From Azospirillaceae bacterium (GTDB lineage: Bacteria; Pseudomonadota; Alphaproteobacteria; Azospirillales; Azospirillaceae): a stretch of DNA of 33,640 bases. Location of the stretch: the NCBI GenBank assembly GCA_028277115.1, contig JANQHG010000154.1, positions 1 to 33,640 on the forward strand, in the 5' to 3' direction. The stretch's first letter is position 1; the number at the start of each line of letters is the position of its first letter. This document shows, one piece after another, positions 14,486-33,640 of the stretch. The translations under genes were made by a program, and so were the position numbers. The notes under the pieces are model-generated. The model saw only the letters and a program-made list of their open reading frames with translations. It did not search any database and was not told the DNA's origin.

Positions 14486-15064
14486 ATGGCACGGGACAAG
14501 AGCGAGCGGGGCGAGCGCGGGCGCGACCGCGAAGACAGCGAGTTGGTCGAACGCCTGGTCAGCATCAACCGCGTCGCCAAGGTGGTCAAGGGCGGGCGCC
14601 GGTTCGGCTTTGCCGCGTTGGTGGTGGTCGGCGACGCCAAGGGGCGGGTCGGGGTCGGCTCGGGCAAGGCGCGCGAGGTGCCCGAAGCGATCAGAAAGGC
14701 GACCGACCAGGCCAAGCGCACGATGATCCGGGTGCCGCTGCGTGAGGCGCGCACGCTGCACCACGATGTCCACGGCCATTTCGGCGCCGGCAAGGTGATC
14801 TTGCGCGCGGCCCCGGCCGGCACCGGGATCATCGCGGGCGGCCCGATGCGCGCGATCTTCGAAGCGCTCGGGGTCCAGGACGTGGTCGCCAAATCGATCG
14901 GCACCTCGAACCCGCATAATATGATCAAGGCGACCTTTTCGGCGTTGCGCCAGGTCGCGAGCCCGCGCCTGGTCGCGGCCCGCCGCGGCCGGCGGGTCAG
15001 CGACATCCTGGGCCGGCGCGAGACCCCGGAATACGCACGCGAGGGGGCGACAGCCCATGCCTGA
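14486..15064 (+). CDS. rpsE: 30S ribosomal protein S5
   Basis: A 192-aa protein. After a charged start ([20 protein letters not shown]) come [20 protein letters not shown] and the second-domain [20 protein letters not shown], both family signatures. S5 shapes the mRNA entry tunnel and influences fidelity. ATG 14486 lies after GAGAGACGAGGA; the open frame upstream is not conserved. Its last eight bases overlap the rpmD start. Confidence 0.97.
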
Positions 15065-15275
15065 GACACCGACCGAGCCGCGCGCGCAGGTGCGCGTCAC
15101 CCAGCACGGCAGCCCGATCGGGCGCAAAGCCGAGCAGCGGGCGACCTTGATCGGCCTTGGCCTCAACAAGCGCCATCGCTCGCGGGTGCTCGAAGACACC
15201 CCGGCGGTCCGCGGCATGATCCGCAAGGTCAGCCACTTGGTCACGGTCGAACCGGTCGAACCGGTCGGCGGATGA
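15057..15275 (+). CDS. rpmD: 50S ribosomal protein L30
   Basis: A 72-aa protein: [20 protein letters not shown], then [20 protein letters not shown] and [16 protein letters not shown]. It is slightly longer than the usual ~60 residues at both ends. L30 is a small bacterial/archaeal 50S protein. Its start overlaps the rpsE stop by eight bases. Unlike the usual tight rpmD-rplO spacing, 208 bases of repeat DNA follow. Confidence 0.96.
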
Positions 15276-15294
15276 CGGTCATCATTTGAAAGGC

Positions 15295-15448
15295 GTAGGT
15301 CGGGGCGCGCGCCGCTCGTCGGTCGATCTTGAAGGGTGCTGTTTGCGGGCGCGCGCCCCGACAGCGGCGGCGGCGAATGTTGGGGCGATCGGCCGACAGA
15401 TCGGTGATGCAACATGGATGGGGCGTGCCGGCCGATCGCCCCAACCGA
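15295..15448 (+). repeat. REP/BIME-like double-hairpin element (family A, copy 1) between rpmD and rplO
   Basis: The element begins with a GTAG head (15295-15298). Hairpin 1 is a perfect 15-bp stem (15299-15313 with 15348-15362). Hairpin 2 is a perfect 17-bp stem (15379-15395 with 15429-15445). Loops are 34 and 33 bases. The same two stem sequences, GTCGGGGCGCG and GTTGGGGCGATCGGCC, recur at 33148 and 33473 with different loops. GTAG followed by a palindrome is the hallmark of REP sequences mobilised by RAYT transposases. Here it sits inside a ribosomal operon, with rplO starting 36 bases further on. Stems conserved and loops variable is directly visible; mobility is inferred. Confidence 0.8.
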
Positions 15449-15483
15449 CGATTTCTTGTTCGGTATCTCAGGGGTTTCGGGCG

Positions 15484-15987
15484 ATGAAGCTCAACGAGTT
15501 GAGGGATAATCCGGGTGCGCGCAAGGCGCGGATGCGGATCGGCCGCGGCATCGGCTCGGGCAAGGGCAAGACCGGCGGCCGCGGCGTCAAGGGTCAGAAG
15601 TCGCGCACCGGCGTCGCGCTCAAAGGGTTCGAGGGCGGTCAGATGCCGGTCTACCGGCGGCTGCCCAAGCGCGGCTTCATCAACCCGTTCGGCCGGGTCT
15701 ATGCCCTGGTCAACCTCGGCCGCGTCCAGGCGGCGATCGATGCCGGCCGGATCGACCCGGCCGAGCCGATCACGCCCGAGGTGCTTAAGCGGGCCGGTGT
15801 GGTCGGAAAGCGGCTCGGCGACGGGGTCCGCCTGCTCGCCAAGGGCAAGGAGCGGTTCGCCACCAAGGCGGACTTCACGGTGACCGGGGCGTCGCTGGCG
15901 GCGATCGCCGCGGTCGAGGCTGCCGGCGGGCGGGTCACCTTCGCGGCGGTTGCGGCGGCCGCTGCGACGTCGGCAGAGCCGGCCTGA
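15484..15987 (+). CDS. rplO: 50S ribosomal protein L15
   Basis: A 167-aa protein: [20 protein letters not shown], then the Gly/Lys-rich RNA-binding stretch [38 protein letters not shown], and a C-terminal domain ending in an Ala-rich tail. L15 is a late-assembly 50S protein contacting many 23S helices. ATG 15484 follows the GGGGTTTCGGGCG stretch. An in-frame open stretch back to 15286 runs through the repeat element and is not conserved. Confidence 0.97.
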
Positions 15988-16159
15988 CGGCGCGGCCGGG
16001 GACAAAAATAAGGGGGTCGGGCCGGGGAGGCCGCCGACCAGCGCGGCTGGTGGCGCTCGCCGCCGCCGGACCACCACCACGTGCTCGAGCGGCGGTTGCG
16101 GGGCGACCGACGGCGCTCTAATCTCCCGCGACGGTCCGGAACGACAAGGGGTGCACCCG

Positions 16160-17503
16160 ATGGCATCCGCTGCGGAACAGCTTGCCGCCAACATGAACTT
16201 CGGCGCGTTCGCCAAAGCGACCGAGCTGCAAAAGCGGCTCCTGTTCACCTTGGGCGCGCTGGTGGTCTATCGGCTCGGAACCTATATTCCGCTGCCCGGG
16301 ATCGACCCGCAGATCCTCGCCGACGTGTTCTCGCAACACGGCGGCGGTATTCTCGGCATGTTCAACATGTTCTCCGGCGGCGCGCTGTCGCGGATGACGA
16401 TTTTCGCGCTCAACATCATGCCGTACATCTCGGCATCGATCATCATCCAGCTTCTGACCGCGACCTCGCCGACGCTGGAAGCGTTGAAGAAGGAGGGCGA
16501 GTCGGGGCGCAAACGGCTGAACCAGTACACCCGCTATCTGACCGTGATGTTGGCGGCGGCCCAGTCCTACGGGCTCGCGGTCGGGATCGAGGGGATGACC
16601 GGGTCGTCGGGCTCGGCGGTGATCGAACCCGGTCTGTTCTTCCGGGTGACCACGGTGATCACCCTGGTCGGCGGCACCGTGTTCTTGATGTGGCTCGGCG
16701 AGCAGGTGACCGCGCGCGGCGTCGGCAACGGCATCTCTTTGATCATCTTTGCCGGCATCGTCGCCGAGTTGCCGCGCGCGCTCGCCGGCACGCTTGAGCT
16801 CGGGCGCACCGGGGCGTTGTCGGCGGTGTTCATCCTGTTCATGCTGGTGATGTCGGTCGCGGTGGTCACCTTTATCGTGTTCATGGAGCGGGCGCAGCGC
16901 CGGTTGATCGTCCAGTACCCCAAGCGCCAGGTCGGCAACCGGATGTTCGGCGGCGAGTCGTCGCATCTGCCGCTCAAGCTCAACACCGCGGGCGTGATCC
17001 CGCCGATCTTCGCAAGCTCGCTGTTGCTCCTGCCCTTGACCGCGGTCGGCTTCGTCGGCACGTCCGGTCCGGAGTGGCTGCAGGTGACCGCCAGTTACCT
17101 GCAGAACGGCTCGGTGCCGTACATGATGCTCTATGCCAGCTTGATCATCTTTTTCTGCTTCTTCTACACGGCGATCGTCTTCAATCCACAGGAGACCGCG
17201 GACAACCTGAAGAAGTATGGCGGGTTCATTCCCGGGATCCGGCCGGGCAAGAACACCGGCGACTATTTGGACTATGTGCTGACCCGGTTGACCGTGTTGG
17301 GGGCGGCCTATCTGACCTTGGTCTGCTTGTTGCCGGAGTTTCTGATCGGCCAGTTCTCGCTGCCGTTCTATTTCGGCGGCACCAGCCTGTTGATCGTGGT
17401 CACGGTGACCATGGATACCGTGTCGCAGATTCACTCGCACCTGCTTGCGCATCAGTACGAAGGGTTGATCAAGAAGTCGAAGCTCAGAGGGAGGCGAGGG
17501 TGA
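16160..17503 (+). CDS. secY: Protein translocase subunit SecY
   Basis: A 447-aa polytopic membrane protein with about ten transmembrane helices, forming the channel of the Sec translocon with SecE and SecG. Seen: [20 protein letters not shown] then [13 protein letters not shown], the [16 protein letters not shown]-like helix ([16 protein letters not shown]), and the C-terminal [18 protein letters not shown] 16160 has AAGGGG (16147-16152) at ideal spacing; the open frame extends upstream to 15950 but that part is not SecY-like. A 172-base gap precedes it. Its stop overlaps the adk GTG start. Confidence 0.97.
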
Positions 17504-18844: not shown

Positions 18845-18879
18845 GTGCCGCGCGGACGGGGTCCTCGTCCGCGCGGCAC
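18845..18879 (+). promoter_or_regulatory. Perfect 14-bp hairpin in the rpsM-rpsK gap
   Basis: GTGCCGCGCGGACG (18845-18858) pairs perfectly with CGTCCGCGCGGCAC (18866-18879) around a seven-base loop, GGGTCCT. The stem can be lengthened by CCTGC (18840-18844) with GCAGG (18884-18888) past a four-base bulge. No T-run follows, so simple termination is unlikely. The rpsM-rpsK gap is 201 bases where these genes are usually close. An RNA-processing, pausing or protein-binding role is possible but unproven. Confidence 0.6.
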
Positions 18880-19437: not shown

Positions 19438-19469
19438 GGTTCGGTCCGCGCGCGCACGTGTGTCGACCC
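19438..19469 (+). repeat. 32-bp direct repeat, copy 1
   Basis: This copy is identical base for base to 19506-19537; the period is 68. It reads GGTTCGGTCCGCGCGCGCAC followed by GTGTGTCGACCC, with an internal CACGTG and an imperfect dyad around it. It lies in the gap upstream of rpoA. Confidence 0.85.
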
Positions 19470-19505: not shown

Positions 19506-19537
19506 GGTTCGGTCCGCGCGCGCACGTGTGTCGACCC
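19506..19537 (+). repeat. 32-bp direct repeat, copy 2
   Basis: Second exact copy of the unit at 19438-19469. The 36 bases between the copies are not part of the repeat. Two identical dyad-bearing sites could be a regulator's binding sites or the residue of a small duplication. Confidence 0.85.
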
Positions 19538-23068: not shown

Positions 23069-23210
23069 CGGTGGTTTGGCGGCTTCGCCCCCCGACACCC
23101 CCTGACCAGGGGTTGCCCCCTGGCCCCCGCTTGAGGAGTGGGGGTCAAGGGGGGTGCCCCCCCTTGCGGGGGTCCGAGGGGGCAGCGCCCCCCGAACGGC
23201 CGTCAGGCCG
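23069..23210 (+). repeat. G/C-run hairpin repeat (family B, copy 1)
   Basis: Just after the protease stop lies a block of G- and C-runs. Its core contains CCAGGGG (23106-23112), loop TTGC, CCCCTGG (23117-23123), a perfect hairpin. A 3' module reads GAGGGGGCAGCGCC (23176-23189), then CCCGAACGGCC. Both modules recur in order at 29669-29764 and the core recurs inverted near 33016-33030. Extragenic position and structure suggest a dispersed palindromic repeat; it may also act as a transcription end or mRNA stabiliser. The remaining bases to 23337 hold a TTGACG (23245) that could be part of a promoter for the next gene. Confidence 0.75.
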
Positions 23211-23337
23211 AAATCCGGCGGCTCAGCCGGGATGGCGCGGCCGATTGACGGACACCGGCCGCGATGATAGCCAACCGGCTCGATCGATCGGCCCTCCCGG
23301 GGACGAACCCGATCGCGAAAACAAAGGGTGATCACGC

Positions 23338-29627: not shown

Positions 29628-29764
29628 GCGCGGTGTTGGGGGATGGTGCCCCCAATGTCAGGGGGGGCGCCCCCCCGACACCCCCCGACCAGGGGTTGCC
29701 CCCTGGACCCCATTTGGTGGGGGGCAGGGGAGGGGGCAGCGCCTCCCGTACGGCCGACAGGCCG
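29628..29764 (+). repeat. G/C-run hairpin repeat (family B, copy 2)
   Basis: The element lies between the convergent urtD and DoxX-NDH-2 genes. The core CCAGGGG (29689-29695), TTGC, CCCCTGG (29700-29706) is identical to the hairpin at 23106-23123. The 3' module GAGGGGGCAGCGCC (29730-29743), then TCCCGTACGGCC, also matches with few changes. The order and orientation are the same as copy 1; the spacer between modules is shorter. It could end transcription from both sides. Confidence 0.75.
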
Positions 29765-29766
29765 CG

Positions 29767-31941
29767 CTACGACGGTCCGTCCGTGATCAGCCGGGTCGAA
29801 CGACGAAAGGTCAAATACGCCCACGCCCAGTTGAGCAGCACGACCAACCGATTGCGCACCCCGGCCAAAAACAGCACATGGACCAAACCCCAAAACCACC
29901 AGGCAAGCGCGCCCCGAAGCCGAACCCGCCCGATCTCCGCAACCGCGGCCTGACGCCCGATCGTCGCGAGATTGCCGGCGTGGCGATACCGGAACGGCGG
30001 CGGCGCCGGCTGGCCGAGCAGACGCCGGTGGATCTCCTTGGCGGCATAGGCGCCGGCCTGCTTGGCCGCGGGCGCGATCCCCGGCACCGGCGTGCCGTCG
30101 CGACCGAGAATCTGCGCGGTGTCGCCGACCACGAACACCGACGGCTGCCCCGGCACCGTCAGGTCGGGCGCAACCATCACCCGGCCGGCCGGGTCGTGCG
30201 CCGCACCAAGCCATTTCTGCGCCGGGGACGCGATCACCCCGGCGGCCCACACCACCGTGCGCGCCGCCACCCGGGTCGCGCCGATGCGGACGCCGCCGGC
30301 ATCGACCTCCTGAACCCGGTGGCCGAGCACCACCTCGACCCCCAGCGCCTCGAGCGCGCGCAGGGTCTCCGTGGACGACGCGGGCGACAACGCCGGCAGC
30401 AGCCGCGGCCCCGCCTGGACCAGGATCACCCGCGCCGCGGCCGGATCGACGTGGCGGAACTCGTCAACCAGCCCGTGATGGGCGAGCTCGGCGATCGCGC
30501 CGGCAAGCTCGACCCCGGTCGGGCCGCCGCCGACCACGACGAAGGTCAACCAAGCTGCGCGCTCGTCCGGGTCGGCGGTGTCTTCGGCATGTTCGAACGC
30601 AACCAGGATGCGCCTGCGGATCTCGGTCGCGTCTTCGATCTTCTTCAACCCCGGCGCCAGCGTCTCCCACTCGTCGCGGCCGAAATAGCTGTGGCGTGCC
30701 CCGGTCGCCAGGATCAAAAAATCGTAGCCAAGCCGCTCGTCGCGCAGCCGGACCGTGCGCGCGTCAAGATCGACTCCGGTGACCCGCCCGAGCCGGACCC
30801 GGACATTGGCCTGGTCGCGGAACATCTCGCGGATCGGCCAGGCGATCTCGGACGCCGACAGGGCGGCGGTCGCGACCTGGTAGAGCAGCGGCTGGAACAG
30901 GTGATAGTTGTGGCGGTCGACCAGGGTGATCCGGCACGGGCTGTGGTGGAGCGCGCGGGCGGCGGCCGCCCCGGCGAAGCCGGCGCTGACGATCACGACA
31001 TGGGCGAGACCTTGGTCGTTCCATCGCGCACCGTCGATCAACGCCGGCGCATGCGCGGCGAGCCGCCGGCCGAGCCAGGCGTCGAGCGACAGCGCGCCGG
31101 GTCCCCGCAACAGCGGGATCACCAACAGGGCGAGCCAATAGGCATGCACCGGCTCGTGGCGCACCAGGGTCTCGATCACGATCGTCATCGTGACCAGCGG
31201 CACCGCGGCGACCCGAGTGAACAACCCGGCCGCGAGCAGCGGCGCGCACACCAACTCGACCGCGGCCGCCAGCCCGGCGGCCAGCGGCGGCGCCAACAGC
31301 GGCAGCCGATACTGCTCGCGGAACAGCGCGACCGCGTGGTCGAAGTTGGCGAGCTTGCCGACCCCCTCGGCAAAGAACAGGCCGGCGATCCCGAACCGGA
31401 ACGCGAAGAGGGCGAGCGGCCCGCCCCAGCGGCTGAGCCACGCCGCCGCGCCTTGGAGCGAGCCGACCAGCGGCAGCGCGATCCAGCGCGTGCCGCGGCC
31501 GAGCGCGGCATCGACCGAGATCGGCCCGGCGCCCGACACCCAATACCAGCCGAGCAGGACCGACGCATAAAGCTGGACCGACGGGTCGACGACCGAGGCC
31601 GAAGCGACCGCGATCAGCGCGGTCAGACCGGCGGCGGCGGCCCGGGTCGCCGCGCCGACCGCGAGCAGGACCCCGCCGACCAGCTCGACCGCCAACCATG
31701 CCGCCGGCACCGGTCCGCGGGTGCCGGTCAGCGTGGCGAGCCCGACCGAGACCACAAGCTGGGCGAGCCACAGCCGGCACACCAAGTCGAACAGCGGCCA
31801 CAGGCTGCGCCGGGTCAGCCGTTGGCCGTCGCGCCACGCCGCGATCCACGGGGCGAAGCGATAGAGTCGGCCGTCGATCGGCCGCGCGGTCGACGCCGGG
31901 ACGGCACCGGGGCTCGTGGGGCTGTCGGGCGGCCCGTCCAA
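29767..31941 (-). CDS. Double DoxX - type II NADH dehydrogenase fusion
   Basis: 724 aa if started at TTG 31941, the only plausible start after the preceding gene; upstream starts would lie inside that gene. Residues ~45-155 and ~172-290 each look like a four-helix DoxX membrane domain. From ~312 the protein is a flavin NADH:quinone oxidoreductase (NDH-2): FAD-binding HVVIVSAGFAGAAAARAL, YHLFQPLLYQVATA, LILATGARHSYFG, NAD-binding FVVVGGGPTGVELAGAIAEL (GGGPTG at 471-476), VFVVGDTAQ, and a C-terminal membrane-anchor stretch (WWFWGLVHVLFLAGVRNR). The first Gly of the FAD motif is Ser. It would oxidise NADH and reduce membrane quinone. Relation of the DoxX part to substrate or anchoring is inference. 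It follows two small membrane-protein genes. Confidence 0.85.
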   Translation of the reverse strand: MDGPPDSPTSPGAVPASTARPIDGRLYRFAPWIAAWRDGQRLTRRSLWPLFDLVCRLWLAQLVVSVGLATLTGTRGPVPAAWLAVELVGGVLLAVGAATRAAAAGLTALIAVASASVVDPSVQLYASVLLGWYWVSGAGPISVDAALGRGTRWIALPLVGSLQGAAAWLSRWGGPLALFAFRFGIAGLFFAEGVGKLANFDHAVALFREQYRLPLLAPPLAAGLAAAVELVCAPLLAAGLFTRVAAVPLVTMTIVIETLVRHEPVHAYWLALLVIPLLRGPGALSLDAWLGRRLAAHAPALIDGARWNDQGLAHVVIVSAGFAGAAAARALHHSPCRITLVDRHNYHLFQPLLYQVATAALSASEIAWPIREMFRDQANVRVRLGRVTGVDLDARTVRLRDERLGYDFLILATGARHSYFGRDEWETLAPGLKKIEDATEIRRRILVAFEHAEDTADPDERAAWLTFVVVGGGPTGVELAGAIAELAHHGLVDEFRHVDPAAARVILVQAGPRLLPALSPASSTETLRALEALGVEVVLGHRVQEVDAGGVRIGATRVAARTVVWAAGVIASPAQKWLGAAHDPAGRVMVAPDLTVPGQPSVFVVGDTAQILGRDGTPVPGIAPAAKQAGAYAAKEIHRRLLGQPAPPPFRYRHAGNLATIGRQAAVAEIGRVRLRGALAWWFWGLVHVLFLAGVRNRLVVLLNWAWAYLTFRRSTRLITDGPS

Positions 31942-33000: not shown

Positions 33001-33052
33001 CCCCGCGGGCCCAAAGGGGGTAACCCCTGGTCGGAGGGTGCCCCCTTGACCT
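33001..33052 (-). repeat. G/C-run hairpin repeat (family B, copy 3, inverted and partial)
   Basis: On the minus strand the sequence reads CCGACCAGGGGTTACCCCCT (around 33034-33015), one base different from the core of copies 1 and 2 in the loop. The 3' module is absent. It abuts the start of the ~288-base direct repeat, which itself starts inside this core (GGTCGGAGGGTGCCCCC). Confidence 0.6.
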
Positions 33053-33315
33053 TGGAGGCAAAGCCACCAAAACCTCGCGAACGGGTGTCGGCTTCTTGTC
33101 TCATGCCAAATCCGGTTGAACCATTCCGTTTGGTCGGAGCACCGCCGGTAGGTCGGGGCGCGGGCGCCCCCTGGTTGATCGGGAGCGCCCTGTCCCAGGC
33201 CCGCGCCCCGATATCGACGGTGCCGCAAAGCTGAACCGCCGATGTTGGGGCGATCGGCCCCCACCGGCGATGCAAACAGGCAAACCGTGCCGGCCGATCG
33301 CCCCAACCTACAGAT
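33029..33315 (+). repeat. ~288-bp tandem repeat unit, copy 1
   Basis: The unit runs from GGTCGGAGGGTGCCCC to CCAACCTACAGAT. It is nearly identical to 33353-33640, differing at about ten positions. The copies are separated by 37 bases, giving a period of about 324. The right half of the unit is a family A double hairpin (33148-33311). Confidence 0.85.
33148..33311 (+). repeat. REP/BIME-like double-hairpin element (family A, copy 2)
   Basis: GTAG head at 33148-33151. Stem 1: 33153-33165 with 33199-33211 (13 bp). Stem 2: 33244-33259 with 33292-33307 (16 bp). It closes with CTAC (33308-33311), so each end carries an outward-reading GTAG head, as in paired inverted REPs. Loops differ from copy 1 in the spc operon. 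Confidence 0.8.
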
Positions 33316-33352
33316 CGGTGAACAGCTTCCTCAGGCGTGGATAACCGGAACT

Positions 33353-33640
33353 GGTCGGAGGGTGCCCCCCTTGACCTTGGAGGCGAAGCCACCAAAACCT
33401 CGCGAACGGGCGTCGGCTTCTTGTCTCATACCAAATCCGGTTGAACCATTCCGTTTGGTCGGAGCACCGCCGGTAGGTCGGGGCGCGGGCACACCCTGGT
33501 TGATCGGGAGCGCCCTGTCCCAGGCCCGCGCCCCGACATCGACGGTGCCGCAAAGCTGAACCGCCGATGTTGGGGCGATCGGCCCCCACCGGCGATACAA
33601 ACAGGCAAACCGTGCCGGCCGATCGCCCCAACCTACAGAT
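33353..33640 (+). repeat. ~288-bp tandem repeat unit, copy 2 (reaches window end)
   Basis: Second copy of the unit at 33029-33315. It begins with the same GGTCGGAGGGTGCCCC (one extra C) and ends at the last base of the window at the same CAGAT, so further copies may lie beyond the edge. Confidence 0.85.
33473..33636 (+). repeat. REP/BIME-like double-hairpin element (family A, copy 3)
   Basis: GTAG head at 33473-33476 and closing CTAC at 33633-33636, with the same two stems as copy 2 and only a few substitutions, mostly in the loop of hairpin 1 and between the hairpins. It arose with the tandem duplication of the surrounding unit. Confidence 0.8.

Follow-up and report, generated by a model that had tools for sequence, protein, structure and literature searches.

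The 155-nt element at positions 15295-15449, between rpmD and rplO of the spc operon, is very probably one free copy of a genome-specific head-to-head repeat dimer that was inserted here, is mostly tolerated and has a mild effect at most. The window, that is, the whole stretch of DNA analysed, is 33,640 nt long, and its host is an alphaproteobacterium, with SecY at 81% to that of Azospirillum soli. Pfam-based gene assignment places the rpmD stop at 15275 and the rplO start at 15484, bearing out the 208 bases that an earlier note on this DNA had read between the two genes. The dimer lies 19 nt from rpmD and 34 nt from rplO, and the features concerned are as follows.

15057-15275, plus strand: rpmD (ribosomal protein L30), the gene 5' of the insertion; Pfam PF00327, E = 5e-21
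15295-15449, plus strand: complete head-to-head REP-like dimer (BIME-like), 155 nt; alignment to other copies and the relatives' spacer of 4-36 nt
15295-15298, plus strand: GTAG head of hairpin 1; sequence, and the genome copies of GTAGGTYGGGGCG (counted below)
15299-15313, plus strand: left arm of hairpin 1, GTCGGGGCGCGCGCC; 15 bp perfect, two-sided stem changes across copies
15348-15362, plus strand: right arm of hairpin 1, GGCGCGCGCCCCGAC; 15 bp perfect, two-sided stem changes across copies
15379-15395, plus strand: left arm of hairpin 2, GTTGGGGCGATCGGCCG; 17 bp perfect, two-sided stem changes
15429-15445, plus strand: right arm of hairpin 2, CGGCCGATCGCCCCAAC; 17 bp perfect, two-sided stem changes
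15446-15449, minus strand: degenerate head of hairpin 2, GTCG, where most other copies have GTAG/CTAC; copy alignment
15469-15473, plus strand: probable Shine-Dalgarno sequence of rplO, AGGGG, outside both hairpins; sequence and accessibility estimate
15484-15987, plus strand: rplO (ribosomal protein L15), the gene 3' of the insertion; Pfam PF00828, E = 4e-17
33108-33352, plus strand: related dimer (33148-33311) inside a 3'-truncated terminal-inverted-repeat (TIR) element (MITE); sequence comparison of copies
33433-33640, plus strand: second MITE-borne dimer, repeating the first in tandem with a period of 325 and cut short where the contig stops

Both stems of the operon copy are perfect, as had been noticed from the letters: hairpin 1 has 15 bp, a loop of 34 nt and GTAG at its foot, hairpin 2 has 17 bp and a loop of 33 nt, and the head of hairpin 2 faces the opposite way to that of hairpin 1. 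The predicted fold of the rpmD-rplO spacer has an energy of -103.7 kcal/mol (z = -2.5), with about -42 kcal/mol per hairpin. The window has only six sites with a perfect inverted repeat of at least 14 bp and a short loop; five of them are copies of this family, and 20 block shuffles of the window yielded zero.

In all 20 same-family genomes in which both genes could be read, only 4-36 nt separate rpmD from rplO, against 208 nt here. The two genes are thus normally adjacent, as had been claimed, and the dimer is an insertion relative to these relatives, which belong to other genera of the family. The earlier note had allowed that the spacer might be an ancestral regulatory element shared by all relatives; the same 20 genomes dispose of this. 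Taking out 15295-15449 leaves 53 nt, which is of the same order as in the relatives, and the gap measures <80 nt in most of 70-odd more distant alphaproteobacteria. Different palindromic inserts stand at the same junction in Brevundimonas mediterranea (263 nt; L166 4015-4277) and in one MAG (140 nt; L127), and these unrelated inserts suggest that the rpmD-rplO junction is a permissive site.

Pattern searches of the genome, with reversed patterns as controls, revealed scores of further copies, so that the refuting outcome named in the earlier note, a lack of copies beyond those in the window, does not hold. There are 78 intact copies of hairpin 2 and 29 of hairpin 1, on many contigs, against 0 matches in the reversed-pattern controls; GTAGGTYGGGGCG has 75 exact copies, whereas its reversed pattern has 1, and each of 38 relatives has 0-5. 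Since the assembly is incomplete (93.8%) and several of its 285 contigs terminate in a repeat copy, these counts are minima. Among 385 genomes from across the class, this is the one with hairpin 2; the 384 others lack it. The family is a genome-specific, high-copy, GTAG-tagged palindrome, which the other genomes searched do not share. A GTAG-headed hairpin that diverges from these and has another stem (GATGTGCC/GGCACATC; L314 384-454) possibly belongs to a second REP subfamily.

Across the family, stems measure 14-17 bp, loops 28-36 nt and the unit about 68 nt, and most full copies, tandem arrays included, are arranged head to head, with GTAG...CTAC pointing outward. In the aligned copies the stems are 3-5 times less variable than the loops; the paired state persists in 98.9% and 96.8% of cells, and both sides have changed together at 3 and 2 pairs (T-A to C-G; G-C to C-G; G-C and U-G). 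Half of the copies show U-G at one of the hairpin 1 pairs, a position that therefore pairs as RNA on one strand only.

Free copies are found at rpmD-rplO and on contigs C140, C131, C62, C74, C42, C249, C189 and others, with flanks that are not shared; some form tandem arrays with a period of about 180 or 294 nt, and the best matches of the operon copy are free tandem copies on C140, at 76% and 74%. In the small sample of copies with nameable flanking genes, most free copies start 3-110 nt past the 3' end of a gene (the 5' genes being MCP, Uma2, acyl-CoA dehydrogenase, trpE, dnaE, purL, CHAT and TPR), and two others lie at 200-300 nt. The operon copy, 19 nt past rpmD, matches this habit, and published REPs likewise prefer positions near gene 3' ends (PMC3733652).

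Other copies are carried by a MITE. The recurrence of the stems at 33148 and 33473, pointed out in the earlier note, proved real, with stem 2 identical to the operon copy over 18 nt and stem 1 a variant of GGGC rather than GCGC type; both copies sit within a TIR element of about 270 bp, and the recurrence thus concerns the MITE-borne form. At the contig end, positions 33041-33640 form a tandem duplication of 325 bp, with a MITE-borne dimer in each unit. The ends of the element are AAATCCGGTTGAACCGTTCCG...GGAACCAAACAATCGGATTT, and about 85 left-type ends were counted in the genome. TIR elements of 160-280 bp were found in L013, L034, L040, L245, L248, L252, L264, L267, L268, L292, L303, L305 and others, in versions that carry hairpin 1 alone, hairpin 2 alone or both. 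Of 24 full copies, 14 are flanked by identical 3-bp TNA sequences; in 10,000 shuffles the mean was 4.5 and the highest value 13. The TIR element is a MITE that picked up the dimer. A distant DNA search of plasmids with a MITE-borne copy as the query gave no match. No cognate transposase was found for the MITE; an IS630 transposase was considered as its mover and rejected: the target duplication of IS630 is TA, unlike the 3-bp TNA duplications here, and the only trace is one remnant with two stops for which no matching ends were seen.

The search for a RAYT (TnpA-REP) gene, proposed in the earlier note, was successful as to the gene and unsuccessful as to its linkage to the repeat. The sole RAYT-type Y1 transposase gene detected lies on contig C77 (L031 1147-1905, minus strand), beside panB. 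Its product scores 77.3 bits with the NCBIfam REP-associated model, just below the cut-off of 80, has TnpA-REP 4er8 as its relative in the PDB, and is closest, at about 50% identity, to proteins on plasmids of Skermanella and Rhodospirillum. No free repeat copies flank the gene in the 93.8% complete assembly, and it does not form a REPtron; the closest repeat, a hairpin 1 borne by a MITE, lies about 1 kb off, across panB. The TIRYT type was rejected for this gene, around which no long inverted repeats were found. With neither flanking free copies nor long inverted repeats at the gene, movement by a RAYT stays an inference. A dimer of two different hairpins entered the short rpmD-rplO gap, 19 nt past the rpmD stop, and a RAYT-type HUH transposase may have carried it there in the form of a single-stranded hairpin; the sole detected RAYT being unlinked, the mover may be lost, unassembled or different.

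The reading of the element as a REP/BIME-like insertion is supported in the sense that it works like a REP dimer. The repeat works like a BIME, but its size and its lack of RAYT linkage keep it from being counted strictly among the published GTAG-REP families, and it is not proven to belong to any of those described. It has compensatory palindromic stems, a high dispersed copy number, inverted dimers and extragenic positions near gene 3' ends, and one foot of the palindrome carries an unpaired tetranucleotide of the GTAG type; in the operon copy, hairpin 2 has a degenerate outer head (GTCG). Like GTAG REPs and BIMEs (Di Nocera et al. 2013, PMC3733652; Nunvar et al. 2010, PMC2817692), the family combines the GTAG foot with outward-headed inverted pairs, heterodimers, high copy number, placement at gene 3' ends, some tandem arrays and some partnerless copies. 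Described GTAG REPs, however, have stems of 5-13 bp, loops of 2-20 nt and units of 20-40 nt (PMC3733652, Table 1); the stems, loops and unit here exceed all three, in the operon copy as in the family, and no repeat-flanked RAYT was found.

GTAG REPs as dimers, and dimers inside longer palindromes, are already well described (PMC3733652). REPINs (Bertels and Rainey 2011, PMC3116915) likewise consist of two inverted REP-like units that move as one short element; each unit here, however, is itself a long hairpin, and the dimer needs no single-hairpin fold. In Anabaena variabilis, GTAG-15 REP dimers occur in long palindromes (PMC3733652), much as many copies here lie inside a longer inverted-repeat element, but in this genome the dimer is carried by a TIR element that makes TNA duplications, and the operon copy has no such carrier. 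The repeat is an addition to the REP-like families, specific to this genome and with stems and loops of unusual length, and an example of such a repeat being tolerated within the best-conserved bacterial operon; the occurrence of the same dimer in free and MITE-borne form bears on how REP-like repeats spread without a repeat-flanked RAYT.

The possible effects of the insertion on the operon are predicted from the sequence and from precedent. Transcribed as part of the spc mRNA, the dimer would form a pair of highly stable stems. A terminator scan of the rpmD-rplO spacer found no terminator-like site, and the element does not qualify as an intrinsic terminator; a promoter scan was empty. Occlusion of the rplO ribosome site was rejected, the site lying outside the stems and its predicted accessibility changing only slightly (0.33 with the dimer versus 0.46 without). 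The stems would accordingly be expected neither to terminate transcription, as they have no U tract, nor to bury the ribosome site. Repeats of the REP type lower translation in E. coli when they lie <16 nt from the stop (PMC12306157); the first stem here begins 23 nt past the rpmD stop, beyond that range. A precedent is the malE-malF intercistronic REP of E. coli, whose stems act as a decay barrier within the operon (PMC5927463): in both cases stable repeat-derived stems lie between two operon cistrons; the operon copy belongs to a different repeat family and would have a decay role by analogy. On this analogy a decay-boundary role is possible, as is the altered expression of rplO-secY-adk that the earlier note had envisaged. 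At most, the dimer would separate rpmD from rplO in translation and hinder 3'-5' decay, to the slight benefit of the upstream cistrons. The likeliest reading is that the operon tolerates the inserted repeat, with a mild mRNA-decay boundary as the upper limit of its effect.

A stronger functional claim would be that selection keeps the stems as a differential-expression element, which stabilises the upstream r-protein cistrons relative to rplO-secY-adk and beyond. The perfection of both stems despite diverged loops and the malE-malF precedent speak for it, but stem conservation belongs to the whole family rather than to the operon copy, and the cell still has to express the downstream genes, which are essential; we regard this as rather unlikely. 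We give little credence, too, to the bolder version in which the dimer has been recruited as an spc expression divider, between the early r-proteins and L15-SecY-Adk-S13-RpoA, and the rpmD-rplO gap is a recurrent landing site, the latter because Brevundimonas mediterranea has its unrelated 263-nt palindromic insert there. If true, the divider would mark a lineage with altered stoichiometry between these two groups of proteins. The element could also be a regulatory RNA local or ancestral to the spc operon, for instance an r-protein binding site or an attenuator, rather than a mobile repeat. Its location in an r-protein operon and its two very stable stems with conserved pairing would fit, but 20 of 20 same-family genomes are without it at this junction, which led us to reject an ancestral element, the same dimer adjoins unrelated genes elsewhere in the genome, and no Rfam family reached its threshold, the only matches being spurious ones to mir-341 at 20-22 bits versus 90. 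A regulatory RNA of this kind is thus very improbable; the dimer may have been recruited later (exaptation).

The route of arrival may also have been different, with the operon copy delivered as part of a MITE, with TNA target duplications, whose TIRs were lost later. Many full-length copies in the genome are indeed MITE-borne, and 14 of the 24 full MITE copies have identical TNA flanks; yet neither TIRs nor target-site duplications were found around the operon copy, which is thus not a MITE as it stands, its best matches are the free C140 copies, and several other copies in the genome are free of TIRs. Delivery in this form appears unlikely. A misjoining of two contig pieces at a repeat is hardly credible: the assembly is indeed fragmented, with several contigs ending in a repeat copy, but the operon copy is unique in sequence (the next best being 76%), the genes on either side stand in their usual order, and nothing seems abnormal about the remaining spacer and its ribosome site.

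Several minor features of the window were also recorded. The rplO-secY gap (15988-16160) is likewise long, about 172 nt, and holds no copy of the repeat. Between rpsM and rpsK of the same gene cluster lies a perfect 14-bp hairpin, GTGCCGCGCGGACG / CGTCCGCGCGGCAC, at 18845-18879, of which no copy was seen among the other loci compared. A 32-nt exact direct repeat, GGTTCGGTCCGCGCGCGCACGTGTGTCGACCC, is present at 19438-19469 and 19506-19537, 68 nt apart. A second dispersed repeat, beginning CCCCCCGACACCCCC, occurs at 23088-23233 and 29671-29787, the two being 78% alike over about 130 nt, and is related to the sequence around 33015-33040.
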